IMG/VR virus record: IMGVR_UViG_3300037347_000115
Span: 1-20,536 of that record
Strand: one strand, 5' to 3'
From: a virus
Length of the DNA stretch: 20,536 nt
This document shows, piece after piece, positions 5,199-14,541 of this stretch (positions within the stretch are counted from its first letter, which is position 1; each line of letters begins with the position of its first letter). A model generated the notes under the pieces. The model was not told where the DNA came from. It saw only the letters and a list, made by a program, of their open reading frames with translations, and ran no database searches. The position numbers and the translations under genes were made by a program.

Positions 5199-5534
5199 TC
5201 ACACCTCCAATCCCGCAAGCACCGTGGCTCGGCCATCGGGCAGATAAATACCTTCCAGATCAAGCACCACCCGGCCAGGCGCGGCGCTGGCGATCTTTAC
5301 GCGCGTCAGCTTCAGGCGCGGCTCCCAGCGGTCAAGCGCGTCGGCAGTGGCGGCGTAAAGCTCCATGGCCAGGCGCGGTGTCATGGGGTTGTCCACCAGG
5401 TCGGGTAGGCGCGAGCCGTAGTCCCGGCGCATGACGCGGGTGCCGATGCGGGTGGTGAGAATGTCCTTGATGCTTTGGCGCAGGTGGTCGAGGCCAGAGA
5501 GTGCCTGGCCGGTGGTGGCGTTGAGTCCGAGCAT
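5199..5534 (-). CDS. Baseplate wedge protein W (P2 gpW / T4 gp25-like)
   Basis: 111 codons. The core LDHLRQSIKDILTTRIGTRV followed by MRRDYGSRLPDLVDNPM is the gp25-like wedge signature. The start at ATG 5534-5532 has GGAGG five bases upstream; the same frame stays open to 5900 but without phage-like content, so the longer version is rejected. The ATG overlaps the TGA of the broken PAAR fragment (TGATG), the usual translational coupling of this operon, which shows the ancestral order was gpV, PAAR, gpW. gp25-family proteins nucleate the inner wedge ring and contact sheath and gpJ. Confidence 0.93.
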   Translation of the reverse strand: MLGLNATTGQALSGLDHLRQSIKDILTTRIGTRVMRRDYGSRLPDLVDNPMTPRLAMELYAATADALDRWEPRLKLTRVKIASAAPGRVVLDLEGIYLPDGRATVLAGLEV

Positions 5535-5653
5535 CAAAACCTCCGGGCGATGAAATTGGCCGACGAATACATTGGGAAAACCTTCTGCCCGCGCCTTGCT
5601 GGAAAGCACCCATACCCAGTGCAGTGGTCTCCAAGACGGGAGATGGCAGGCAT
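5534..5653 (-). pseudogene. PAAR spike-tip protein remnant, internally deleted and frameshifted
   Basis: ATG 5653-5651 has a good Shine-Dalgarno (AAGGAG). It opens a 39-codon frame whose start, MPAISRLGDHCTGYGCFP, matches the beginning of PAAR-domain proteins, which sharpen the tip of contractile-tail spikes. Full PAAR proteins are about 85-105 residues. Here, after FPARR, the homology moves to the next frame, where AEGFPNVFVG resembles the usual C-terminal end of the family (GSPNVFVG). The simplest reading is an out-of-frame internal deletion that joined the first ~20 and last ~12 residues. The fragment's stop overlaps the gpW start. What is seen: the motif and the frame change. Inferred: loss of function. 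Confidence 0.7.
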
Positions 5654-5665
5654 AGTGCTCCTTAA

Positions 5666-5768
5666 TGTCGCTAATAATGTCGCTAAAACTTGCGCGACAC
5701 AAATAATGTCGCGATAATGAAATCGCGACACAAACAGCTTTAATGACGCAATTGCGCGTTGCGCGACA
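5666..5768 (+). promoter_or_regulatory. Promoter and TGTCGC operator cluster upstream of the Fic gene
   Basis: Six copies of the hexamer TGTCGC or its complement GCGACA lie in about 100 bases: 5666-5671, 5678-5683, 5694-5699 (reverse), 5707-5712, 5725-5730 (reverse), 5763-5768 (reverse). The two middle ones form a perfect 9-base inverted repeat (TGTCGCGAT / ATCGCGACA) at 5707-5715 and 5722-5730. A sigma-70-like promoter, TTGCGC (5690-5695), 17 bases, GATAAT (5713-5718), lies across the palindrome, so a protein bound there would block polymerase. The base composition is AT-richer than its surroundings. Confidence 0.6.
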
Positions 5769-5778
5769 GGAGAAACAG

Positions 5779-7173
5779 ATGGCCAAACCGATCCCGATCC
5801 GTGAGTACGAAGCCGTCCTGGATGCCATTGGGCAGCTCCCAGGGGGCGCTGGTATTGAACAGATCGAGGCGAGCCTGACGAATCCACCCACCCGCCGCAC
5901 TTTGCAGCGTTGGCTGACCGACCTGATTGCTCAAGAGCGCTTGCACAAGGAAGGCCAAGGACGCGCCACGCGATATCTACGCGGGAAAATCGTCACCGCC
6001 AGCGCTCAAGTCACAGCACGGGCCCAAGCGACAGCGCACGCGGAAATCCTGATTCCCCTGTCCGACGAAGCAAAACAAATTGAGGCGCATGTCAGGCAGC
6101 CAGTGCAAAAGCGCAACCCCGTTGGCTACAACCAGGCGTTTTTGGATAACTACCAGCCCAACGTCAGCTTCTATCTACCCGAATCGATCCGGGCGGAACT
6201 GCTGGCCCATGGCCAAGCCGCCAATACCAATGAACCCGCTGGCACTTATGCCCGCCAAATCGCCAATCGTCTGTTGATCGATTTGTCGTGGAACTCCAGC
6301 CGCCTGGAGGGCAATACCTACTCCCTGTTGGAAACTGAGCGTCTGCTGTCGGTCGGCGTTGCCGCCACGGGCAAGGATGCGCTGGAATCCCAGATGATTC
6401 TTAATCACAAGGAGGCGATTGAGTTTCTGATCGCATCAGCCGCCGAGATCGGATTTAACCGCTACACCTTGCTGAATCTGCACGCGCTGCTGTCGGACAA
6501 CTTGCTCGAAGACCCCACCGCCAGCGGCCGCCTGCGCAGTATTGCCGTTGGTATTGGACAAACGGTGTTTTATCCGCTCGAAGGGCCGCAGCGCATTGAA
6601 GAGTGTTTCCAGCAGATTCTCGACACGGCAACCGCCATCGAAGACCCGTTCGAGCAGTCTTTTTTTGCGATGGTGCATCTACCTTATCTGCAGCCCTTCG
6701 AGGACGTCAACAAACGGGTATCGCGCCTGGCTGCCAACATTGCGCTGATCCAACGCAATCTGTGTCCGTTGTCCTTTGTCGATGTAGCCCAACAGACCTA
6801 CATCAGCGCCATGCTGGGCGTCTACGAGCTCAACCGCATCGAGCTGCTGCGCGATGTTTTTGTGTGGGCTTACAAACGCTCGTGCGCACGCTACTCTGCC
6901 GTGCGTCAGTCGCTCGGCGAACCCGATCCGTTTCGGATTCAGTACCGAACGCTGATCGCTGAAACCGTCACAGACGTGGTGCGCGGCCGTATGAACAAAG
7001 CGCAGGCTGTTGCGTTTGTTCGTCGCTGTGCCGATGAACAACTCCCCAAGCAAGACCGCGCGCGTTTTGTCGAAGTGACGGAAACCCAGCTGATGAGCCT
7101 GCACGAAGGGAGTATTGCCCGTTACCGGCTTCGCCCCAGTGAGTATCAAGCATGGCAGGATATCTGGAAATGA
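5779..7173 (+). CDS. Fic/DOC-fold protein with N-terminal winged helix, non-canonical active-site motif
   Basis: 464 codons. ATG 5779 is preferred over 5743 because AGGAG lies six bases before it and 5743 has no such signal. Residues ~10-68 look like a winged helix-turn-helix (TRRTLQRWLTDLIAQERL, then a basic GQGRATRYLRG wing). Residues 173-178 (SSRLEG, followed by N) fit the inhibitory-helix motif (S/T)xxxE(G/N) of auto-inhibited Fic proteins. The Fic loop is HLPYLQPFEDVNKRVSR at 300-316. Compared with the usual HPFx(D/E)GN(G/K)RxxR, the catalytic His position is Gln305 and the loop Gly is Val310; another His sits at 300. Fic enzymes usually transfer AMP to protein hydroxyls; with this loop the activity is uncertain. 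The gene runs opposite to the phage operon and sits between gpV and gpW as a late insertion. Confidence 0.85.
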   Translation: MAKPIPIREYEAVLDAIGQLPGGAGIEQIEASLTNPPTRRTLQRWLTDLIAQERLHKEGQGRATRYLRGKIVTASAQVTARAQATAHAEILIPLSDEAKQIEAHVRQPVQKRNPVGYNQAFLDNYQPNVSFYLPESIRAELLAHGQAANTNEPAGTYARQIANRLLIDLSWNSSRLEGNTYSLLETERLLSVGVAATGKDALESQMILNHKEAIEFLIASAAEIGFNRYTLLNLHALLSDNLLEDPTASGRLRSIAVGIGQTVFYPLEGPQRIEECFQQILDTATAIEDPFEQSFFAMVHLPYLQPFEDVNKRVSRLAANIALIQRNLCPLSFVDVAQQTYISAMLGVYELNRIELLRDVFVWAYKRSCARYSAVRQSLGEPDPFRIQYRTLIAETVTDVVRGRMNKAQAVAFVRRCADEQLPKQDRARFVEVTETQLMSLHEGSIARYRLRPSEYQAWQDIWK

Positions 7174-7292: not shown

Positions 7293-7958
7293 TCAGGGAT
7301 GACTGTGGTGGTTGCTGTTGCCGCCGCCGTCCATGATGCTGCCGGTCGCTGAAATGCTGCCGGCGACATTTACGCTGCCCTCGATGCTGGCCCCTGCTCC
7401 ACCGCCGCCCTTGCCAACCAGTCCGGCAAGATAAGCCAGCAGACCCTTGACCGTCAGCTTGCCGGTGAACGTGCTCTTCAGTGCATCAACCGTAAGCTGC
7501 TGTGTCGTCAGCGTCGTGCCTGCGTCGGTCATCTCCAATGTCGTGCCGCCAACACATAACCGAATGCGTCCGCCAGCAGGCACCGACAATTGCCAGTGAT
7601 GCTGCGCCCGGTCATATTCCTGCACCGCGCCATCCTTCCACACCGTGCGCGAGACCTCCGCCGAATCTGCCGGTGCCGGATGGTCAGCCCGATACACCGA
7701 GCCCACCACCACCGCCTGATTCAAATCGCCACCGAGTGCCACCAGCAACACCTGCTCGCCGGGTTCAATCGCATGCCATGTCCGGTCGGGGCCTGCGCGC
7801 AGCGCGACAAAGGGCAACCAGCCGGTGGTGATCGGCCCGGCCTTGACCCGCACGCGGGCACGATTGGTATCGAGTTCCACCACCTGACCCATCAGCGCCA
7901 CATTGCTGATGCGCCGCTCGGCCTCGGTCATGTCCTGGTGCAGATTGCGCTCGGTCAT
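7293..7958 (-). CDS. Baseplate assembly protein V (P2 gpV-like central spike)
   Basis: 221 codons. Residues ~20-95 form the OB-fold part (NVALMGQVVELDTNRARVRV, GWLPFVALRAG, EPGEQVLLVALGGDLNQAVV). The C-terminal half is a repeat-like beta-helix stretch (LTTQQLTVDALKSTFTGKLT, GSVNVAGSISATGSIMDGGG). The protein ends NSNHHSHP, so an HxH pair sits at residues 218-220; in P2-type spikes an HxH set binds a metal ion at the tip. gpV is the trimeric membrane-piercing spike. It starts 4 bases after the U-like gene with no clear Shine-Dalgarno; a second in-frame ATG ten codons downstream has AGGA too close to it, so the exact start is uncertain. Confidence 0.9.
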   Translation of the reverse strand: MTERNLHQDMTEAERRISNVALMGQVVELDTNRARVRVKAGPITTGWLPFVALRAGPDRTWHAIEPGEQVLLVALGGDLNQAVVVGSVYRADHPAPADSAEVSRTVWKDGAVQEYDRAQHHWQLSVPAGGRIRLCVGGTTLEMTDAGTTLTTQQLTVDALKSTFTGKLTVKGLLAYLAGLVGKGGGGAGASIEGSVNVAGSISATGSIMDGGGNSNHHSHP

Positions 7959-11719: not shown

Positions 11720-12034
11720 ATGTACACGGTCACTGAAACCCCGGAATTCCAAGCGCAGGCTCGCAGAGTCTGGTCAGAGGACGAGCTTGACGGCTTCGTC
11801 GACTGGATTGCTTGTAACCCACTTGCCGGGGATGTGATTCCGGGCACGGATGGCGCGCGCAAAGTACGTTGGGCAGCGCAAGGCAAGGGCAAACGAGGCG
11901 GTGCGCGTGTCATTTATTTCAACATGCTGGAAGATGGCGTCATTGTGTTACTGGCGGTCTATGTGAAATCCGAGCAATTCAACGTCGCCGCCAAAGCTGT
12001 TAAAGGAGCGAAACATGAGCATGAAAAATCTTGA
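11720..12034 (+). CDS. higB: RelE/HigB-family mRNA-interferase toxin
   Basis: 104 codons. The RelE/HigB2 pattern is clear: MYTVTETPEFQAQARRVWSE, FVDWIACNPLAGDVIPGTDG, ARKVRWAAQGKGKRGGARVI, YFNMLEDGVIVLLAVYVKSE. These toxins cut mRNA in the ribosomal A site; the basic K/R-rich segment and the IYF strand are where the active residues normally lie. The 3' end overlaps the antitoxin start by 20 bases (toxin-first order, as in higBA). There is no Shine-Dalgarno. It is transcribed opposite to the phage operon, between protease and portal genes. The family is well supported; the HigB subfamily name is by gene order and partner type. Confidence 0.88.
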   Translation: MYTVTETPEFQAQARRVWSEDELDGFVDWIACNPLAGDVIPGTDGARKVRWAAQGKGKRGGARVIYFNMLEDGVIVLLAVYVKSEQFNVAAKAVKGAKHEHEKS

Positions 12035-12338
12035 TATTGAAAAGGTCGCCAAAGCGATAGAGGCCGATGCTGGCCAACCTATCGAAGGCTTGCGCGAATC
12101 TTTGGCGCAAGCCAAGGCGGGCATCGCCGGGCGTGTCACCACGCCAGACCAAATACTAGTTCGCCAGGCACGGGAGAAATCCGGCCTGACCCAAGCCGCG
12201 TTCGCCGAACGGATCGCCACGCCGGTGGCTACGCTGCGTGACTGGGAGCAGGGCCGCTTTACGCCGCCGGGCGCGGCGGCGTGTTTGCTACGCCTGATCA
12301 TTAAGCATCCTGATCTGACGGGCGAACTGACGGCCTGA
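12015..12338 (+). CDS. higA: HigA/NadS-type antitoxin, XRE-family helix-turn-helix regulator
   Basis: 107 codons, with AAGGAG six bases before ATG 12015. The C-terminal half is an XRE helix-turn-helix: LVRQAREKSGLTQAAFAERI, ATPVATLRDWEQGRFTPPG, ending ACLLRLIIKHPDL. The N-terminal half (IEKVAKAIEADAGQPIEGLR, ESLAQAKAGIAGRVTTPDQ) resembles the NadS/HigA2 group that neutralises HigB2-type toxins. It probably binds the palindrome at 11692-11710 and represses its own operon. Its last 38 bases overlap the 3' end of the convergent portal gene, so the two proteins share DNA at their C-termini. Confidence 0.88.
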   Translation: MSMKNLDIEKVAKAIEADAGQPIEGLRESLAQAKAGIAGRVTTPDQILVRQAREKSGLTQAAFAERIATPVATLRDWEQGRFTPPGAAACLLRLIIKHPDLTGELTA

Positions 12339-14030: not shown

Positions 14031-14285
14031 ATGCGCGTCGTAAATTTCTCCGAGGCTCGCAACAGCCTCAAAAACGTCATTGATCAGGTCATTGACGATG
14101 CCGACTACACGGTCATTGCCCGGCGCGACGCAGCTGATGCGGTCGTCATGTCGCTGGAGACCTTCAACAGCCTGATGGAGACCGTCCACCTACTGAAATC
14201 GCCCGCTAATACCGCCCACCTGGCACGCTCCATCGAACAGTACCGCCAGGGCAAGCTGACGCAGCAGGGACTGACCGATGCCTAG
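14031..14285 (+). CDS. yefM: YefM/Phd-family antitoxin
   Basis: 84 codons. MRVVNFSEARNSLKNVIDQV, then DDADYTVIARRDAADAVVMS, LETFNSLMETVHLLKSP and a disordered C-terminal tail (SIEQYRQGKLTQQGLTDA) follow the YefM/Phd pattern closely. The N-terminal domain dimerises and binds DNA; the tail wraps the YoeB active site. It overlaps the toxin start by 8 bases, giving translational coupling. The cassette is opposite in strand to the phage operon and starts 70 bases from the connector gene's start. Confidence 0.94.
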   Translation: MRVVNFSEARNSLKNVIDQVIDDADYTVIARRDAADAVVMSLETFNSLMETVHLLKSPANTAHLARSIEQYRQGKLTQQGLTDA

Positions 14286-14541
14286 TCGCATCACCTGGAC
14301 GCTGGCGGCCTGGGAGGATTACCAGTATTGGCAGGGGCAGGATCGCAAGACTTTGAAGCGCATCAACAGCCTGATCCAGAACTGCCTACGAGAATCCTTC
14401 GAGGGCATCGGCAAACCGGAACCCTTAAAAGAAAACCTCTCTGGCTTCTGGTCTCGCCGCATCGATGAGACCAACCGCCTGATCTATCGGGTCGATGGCG
14501 ACGATCTGGTGATCATTGCCTGCCGCTACCATTACGACTGA
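14278..14541 (+). CDS. yoeB: YoeB-family ribosome-dependent mRNA interferase toxin
   Basis: 87 codons. It aligns by eye with E. coli YoeB over its full length: DYQYWQGQDRKTLKRINSLI, FEGIGKPEPLKENLSGFWSR, RLIYRV, and the terminal ACRYHY followed by one extra Asp. The catalytic residues known in E. coli YoeB (Glu46, Arg65, His83, Tyr84) correspond here to Glu48, Arg67, His85 and Tyr86, so the toxin should be active. YoeB binds the 70S A site and cuts mRNA. The stop is 11 bases from the convergent terL stop, so the cassette fills the gap exactly. Confidence 0.95.
   Translation: MPSRITWTLAAWEDYQYWQGQDRKTLKRINSLIQNCLRESFEGIGKPEPLKENLSGFWSRRIDETNRLIYRVDGDDLVIIACRYHYD

Follow-up and report, generated by a model that had tools for sequence, protein, structure and literature searches.

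A phage Fic protein with a glutamine-type loop, a predicted winged helix and a putative operator array: a candidate one-gene toxin-antitoxin-like cassette

The virus record analysed here (20,536 bases, referred to as the window) carries a Fic gene whose active-site loop has glutamine in place of the canonical catalytic histidine, and this Gln-for-His Fic is, judging from its relatives, of a natural and widespread kind. On balance the gene is probably a solitary accessory phage gene of two domains, combining an autorepressor with a self-inhibited Fic effector in a toxin-antitoxin-like cassette. The Gln-type motif class was already printed in 2015 as clade D2 of Khater and Mohanty (PMC4454073), so that the main point of the initial annotation, a Fic motif lacking its histidine, is real but not new. 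What is new is the rest of the gene, namely its predicted winged helix, its putative operators and its genetic context.

The open reading frame spans 5743-7173 (+) and encodes 476 residues from the longest-ORF start. The in-frame ATG at 5779 was chosen as the start because homologues align from a Met at this codon and an AGGAG (5768-5772) precedes it; residues are numbered from there unless P0001 numbering is indicated, and counting from the longest-ORF start adds 12, by which His300, Gln305 and Val310 become 312, 317 and 322. Both fold and profile place the protein in the Fic/Doc family, the Pfam Fic model PF02661 matching with 39.1 bits against a cut-off of 24 (E 1.4e-9). Among solved structures, FICD and its worm homologue are the best phmmer matches, and the only PADLOC defence profiles to match, PDC-S04 (5.4e-14) and SoFic (9.4e-11), do so within the Fic region alone. 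An NCBIfam profile search of the protein gave no match, and its PHROG matches are families without a named function. The features discussed below are collected in Table 1.

Table 1. Features of the window gene and its surroundings, in window coordinates.
Feature	Position	Strand	Details
Winged-helix-Fic(Gln) gene	5779..7173	+	464 aa from likely ATG 5779; frame open from 5743
Predicted N-terminal winged-helix domain	5797..5982	+	Model helices 7-18, 26-32, 39-51; strands 55-58, 65-68
Predicted recognition helix RRTLQRWLTDLIA	5893..5931	+	Model helix 39-51
Inhibitory helix motif SSRLEGN	6295..6315	+	Glu, Gly, Asn 87/87
Asn-His-Lys 209-211, family-specific	6403..6411	+	NHK 87/87
Fic loop HLPYLQPFEDVNKRVSR	6676..6726	+	Gln305 for His, Val310 for Gly
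Putative operator array	5666..5768	.	TGTCGC at 5666, 5678, 5707; GCGACA at 5694, 5725, 5763
Promoter, read by eye	5690..5718	+	-35 TTGCGC (5690-5695), 17 bp, -10 GATAAT (5713-5718); operators inside
Baseplate gpV-like gene flanking fic	7293..7958	-	PF04717
Shortened PAAR-like spike gene flanking fic	5534..5653	-	39 codons left; 20-residue match, 75%, to L006 PAAR
Toxin-antitoxin-like pair	11720-12034, 12015-12338	+	Weak RelE-like ORF and HTH/MqsA-like ORF; antisense to head genes
Toxin-antitoxin-like pair	14031-14285, 14278-14541	+	Phd/YefM and YoeB; antisense to head genes

Relatives were collected from phage contigs (6 loci), from plasmids (12 fetched of 51 records matching by tblastn) and from one genome per species (the best 80 of 566 encoding stretches). 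From 100 loci, 94 entered the upstream repeat set after 6 were dropped as near-duplicates or for too little upstream DNA, and 87 proteins entered the alignment, which leaves out those 6 and L013-L019. Class and phylum samples later added 33 loci, or 30 proteins after removal of 3 duplicates. The search patterns for the phage contigs and the one-per-species set draw in part on the loop and on LNHK, so that some of the invariance counted in these loci is built into the sampling; the relatives found by plasmid tblastn and the 30 later proteins are free of this pattern bias.

Read from ATG 5779, the window encodes LQPFEDVNKRVSR with Gln305 and Val310 as the initial annotation had stated, and its question of whether these residues are conserved as a subfamily is answered by the alignment. 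The loop Gln (Gln317 in P0001 numbering) is invariant in all 87 proteins, and at Val322 (P0001 numbering; Val310 here) 85 have Val and two have Ala. Gln recurs in 12/12 fetched plasmid tblastn relatives and in 30/30 previously unseen proteins of the later search, and the distant plasmid relatives L014, L015, L016 and L019 carry Gly at the Val position. The D2 motif Qx[F/Y]x[D/E][G/V]NKR appears in the window as QPFEDVNKR, with Q, F, N, K and R in 87/87, D in 86/87 and V in 85/87. Decay or mutation of an ordinary Fic gene could explain the two altered canonical loop residues; the same Gln and Val in relatives of several phyla, which mark a conserved subfamily, together with an intact frame and intact putative operators, effectively rule it out.

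The other residues that the annotation had reported as intact are so throughout the family. Asn323, Lys324, Arg325 and Arg328 (P0001 numbering) of the Asn-Lys-Arg-x-x-Arg part are each found in 87/87, and the encoded SSRLEGN corresponds to the inhibitory pattern (S/T)xxxE(G/N) that class II Fic proteins carry ahead of their core, its E (Glu189, P0001 numbering) and G being present in 87/87. The invariant loop Asn and Arg residues of Fic AMP transferases (N323, R325, R328) and the invariant inhibitory Glu would suit an ordinary AMP transferase, weak or rescued, with Gln or another residue replacing His. Residual activity of His mutants of IbpA and of His-to-Gln mutants of another enzyme is likewise described in PMC4454073, where D2 proteins are suggested not to be dead. 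An AMP transferase of this sort is nevertheless improbable, as the catalytic loop His is Gln in 87/87, a change of the loop His abolished growth inhibition by the Fic protein CccR (PMC9755527), and position 300 holds no conserved candidate. His300 had been proposed as a stand-in base; this position (312 from the longest-ORF start) is His in 60, Gln in 25 and Tyr in 2 of the 87 proteins, by which the proposal falls.

Another histidine lies in the family-specific Asn-His-Lys segment. Asn-His is retained in all 30 later proteins, NHK was not found in any His-type protein listed for comparison, and the His-type proteins L133, L144 and L146, of similar context, have Asn-Asn at this position. In the proteins compared, absence of the loop His coincides with presence of the Asn-His-Lys His, and His210 could be a relocated catalytic residue. 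The joint reading, in which a one-gene toxin-antitoxin would have moved its catalytic His from the loop to His210 while the same polypeptide would hold both its antitoxin, in the inhibitory helix, and the repressor that binds its operators, is regarded as unlikely.

In the AlphaFold2 model, which was built on 81 aligned sequences (mean pLDDT 87.2, pTM 0.65), three helices and a two-strand wing are followed by a low-confidence linker (71-88) and then by the Fic core. As modelled, the three helices and the wing are a winged helix; the Pfam HTH models give no match in the window protein and do match some relatives. In a VIA-align comparison of the model the top matches were structures of FICD (Z of about 25; ~235 residues at an rmsd of 2.5-2.8 Å), with the N-terminal part barely covered.

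The DNA in front of the gene contains six TGTCGC/GCGACA half-sites, which overlie the likely promoter and ribosome-binding site of fic, the last of them abutting the ribosome-binding site. None of 40 shuffles matched the repeat score of this array. The TTGCGC-17-GATAAT promoter was read by eye and was missed by a mechanical sigma-70 scan; the repeats lie over it, around the -35 and -10 of their own gene, as is the case for CccR. The Fic protein very probably binds DNA before its own gene, and self-regulation of the window gene is considered highly likely.

The upstream DNA of the first relatives also contains short repeats in both orientations, with a sequence that differs by branch. These were scored as the best 8-mer with one mismatch on both strands within 130 bp, with 40 dinucleotide shuffles as the null. 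The score beat all 40 shuffles in 64/94 fic upstreams and all but at most one in 78/94, 30/94 falling short of the former mark. A score of at least 3.5 was reached by 48/94 fic upstreams, compared with 7/502 upstream regions belonging to other ORFs of these loci and 0/456 intragenic pieces, and a score of at least 3 by 22 of the 29 scorable cases among the 30 later proteins. An operator label could be assigned in 75 of the 87 loci, 12 having none. Across these 75, the spacing from one site to the next is 18-22 bp in 116/205 cases, or about two DNA turns, and clusters of at least three core sites occur at the own fic promoter in 63/75, with a single one at any other place in the 528 kb of loci.

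Operator type follows the recognition helix of the protein encoded downstream. TGTCGC operators pair with the helices RRTLQRWL and PRMLQRRL, TGGCGC operators mostly with PRRTLQRRL, TGGCAC operators with some KRTLQRRL proteins and TTGCGYNTA operators with RTLQYRL. A plain mutual-information analysis of protein columns against operator type was dropped, being dominated by relatedness, and because of this a partial Mantel test of operator against helix was used with Fic distance held constant; it gave a partial r of 0.18, which 0/999 permutations reached. The best of 453 nine-residue windows for tracking operator type comprises residues 51-59 of P0001, within the predicted recognition helix, and the best of 384 single columns is residue 56 (P0001). 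L050 and L083 have Fic domains only 10% apart, yet carry TGGCGC and TGTCGC operators, respectively, with different helices. When only the TGTCGC/TGGCGC group is considered, the signal becomes weak and the best column is 62, outside the recognition-helix core, so that any finer helix code within this group is tentative. The helix rule was drawn up post hoc and misfits 12/75 of its own data, 8 of these by giving no prediction; it agrees with the operator in 9/9 later proteins that have both a rule and a label. The co-variation of operator sequence with the recognition helix indicates that the protein is most likely self-repressing, and the role as a regulator that the initial annotation had raised as a possibility is strongly backed by the predicted N-terminal winged helix and the co-varying array.

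Searched in whole genomes, a two-site TTGCGYNTA pattern was found in 11/14 genomes of the matching operator type and in 0/6 others, while a reversed-pattern control gave 8 matches in one genome and one in another. Beyond the known gene the pattern occurred in two places, at a second Gln-Fic gene (L115) and beside an AbiEii gene (L102). In L102, two full and one partial TTGCGC-type half-sites lie at about 1490-1550, directly downstream of the AbiEii toxin gene, and no Gln-Fic gene was seen within the 3 kb examined. With so few arrays outside fic promoters, the regulator seems to control mostly its own gene. Operators as a trait of Gln-type genes only were ruled out, since some His-type Fic genes have arrays in front of them too, 4/25 His-type genes of the same genomes reaching a repeat score of 3.5 or more. 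Arrays of other sequence precede the His-type fic of L133, L124, L139 and L130, for instance TCTACTAA in L133 and TTTTCGAT in L139. These other arrays, and the sequence-based assignment of the repeats to the Fic protein, would also be compatible with operators of another host or phage protein; this is very improbable given that operator type tracks the Fic protein's own recognition helix across phyla.

The genes next to fic in the relatives bear on whether the protein acts on anything beyond itself. In an all-against-all comparison and a Pfam search of 59 downstream- and 43 upstream-neighbour ORFs, no partner gene recurred beyond hsdR and SIR2_2, with HSDR_N in 3/59 and SIR2_2 in 2/59 downstream neighbours. 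Integrase-like ORFs recur in L003, L015, L022 and L079, the family name being taken from the plasmid annotation of L015. The hsdR gene lies directly downstream of Gln-fic in L029, L033 and L045. In L033 (TGATG) and L045 (TAATG, about 4398) the fic stop overlaps the hsdR start, from which the fic array may set expression of the restriction enzyme in these two loci. In L009 and L063 the gene runs into a SIR2-domain gene, followed in L009 by a short Argonaute gene.

Such run-ons fit a regulator as well as an effector. They are among the features that would agree with a pure regulator, whose Fic domain would lack catalysis and serve as a nucleotide or stress sensor tuning the autorepressor, sometimes with control of a downstream defence gene in the manner of the controller proteins of restriction systems; the operators with their helix co-variation and the lack of a catalytic loop His in any of the 87 proteins would be equally expected of it. 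Most loci, however, have no recurrent partner gene, the window phage has no downstream gene on the same strand, genomes mostly hold no second array, and the loop and inhibitory residues remain invariant, which together make a pure regulator somewhat unlikely.

The window fic lies antisense within the baseplate operon, between gpV and a PAAR gene. A Pfam search of the shortened PAAR-like ORF gave no match; L155 and L174 keep a PAAR match over 93-95 residues, compared with the 39-codon remnant in the window. Across the 38 closest sister loci (L150-L187), the gpV-gp25 interval holds fic in 3 (L150, L155 and L174, contigs already met as L001, L002 and L006) and a toxin-antitoxin module in 12, all antisense to the tail genes. 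The latter are HigBA in 5 loci (L151, L152, L175, L176, L184), ParDE in 4 (L157, L158, L163, L166) and PrlF-YhaV in 3 (L159, L185, L186), the Pfam names having been obtained on one example per kind. In 6 sister loci the interval contains a same-strand gene of about 167 codons, and 17 have no such insertion, two of which (L167, L170) end at the contig edge. Each antisense insertion seen is thus either a toxin-antitoxin module or fic. The insertion joints differ, fic lying between gpV and PAAR and most others between PAAR and gp25. Within the baseplate operon of these phages the interval is a hot spot for cargo, occupied by HigBA, ParDE, PrlF-YhaV or Fic, or left empty.

These toxin-antitoxin occupants are the main reason for preferring a one-gene toxin-antitoxin-like cassette over a pure regulator. 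The separate genes of a type II toxin-antitoxin system are lacking here, the gene being single and its next neighbour, gpV, on the other strand. It may instead be a one-gene module that is both self-repressed and self-inhibited, and a toxin-antitoxin-like role is, from its context, moderately likely. In this reading the protein would bind the array, probably cooperatively given sites ~20 bp or two helical turns apart, and would repress its own gene. The inhibitory helix would be a built-in antitoxin, and the class-II-like Fic domain would be the effector, with chemistry that departs from standard His-based AMP transfer. As a whole, the gene would serve the prophage as a toxin-antitoxin-like cassette for stability or defence. 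The motif class of 2015 thereby gains a defined putative operator, a recognition-helix code and a context pointing to such a role. If the Fic domain is active without the loop His, the rule by which Fic proteins are called alive or dead must change; if it is inactive, these proteins form a large family of transcription factors built on a Fic domain, and some members stand at the head of restriction or Argonaute operons.

Among the closest known systems is clade D2, in which His is also replaced by Gln in Qx[F/Y]x[D/E][G/V]NKR and which was described as 45 bacterial sequences, usually single-domain, with no function assigned there (PMC4454073). In the close family studied here, a predicted N-terminal winged helix and putative operator arrays are instead the norm. 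For the operators of Gln-type Fic proteins, no description was found in the literature searched. Another close system is CccR of Yersinia pseudotuberculosis, a class II Fic protein with an HTH domain and repeats at its own promoter, which it represses through two inverted repeats near -35/-10. CccR differs in its C-terminal HTH, compared with the N-terminal winged helix modelled here, in its catalytic His192, which is kept and needed for growth inhibition, in being a secreted effector, and in its operators, two 10-bp repeats 26 bp apart (PMC9755527). Kinch et al. had already raised the possibility that an HTH fused to Fic controls the expression of fic (PMC2686095). Among HTH-Fic proteins self-repression is therefore of a known kind; the variant features here are that the domain is N-terminal, the array phased and the core of the Gln type.

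Sofic and CbFic2 are likewise class II Fic proteins with a further domain, but both are active AMPylases with the extra domain at the C-terminus; Sofic is antiphage (PMC12249575), and CbFic2 carries an HTH, its activity being altered by DNA (PMC10628234). Animal FICD is the best PDB match in both sequence and structure, but in the alignment it retains the catalytic His. Finally, HigBA, ParDE and PrlF-YhaV of the sister phages share with fic the gpV-gp25 interval, the antisense orientation and a self-contained organisation, but consist of two genes with a separate antitoxin.
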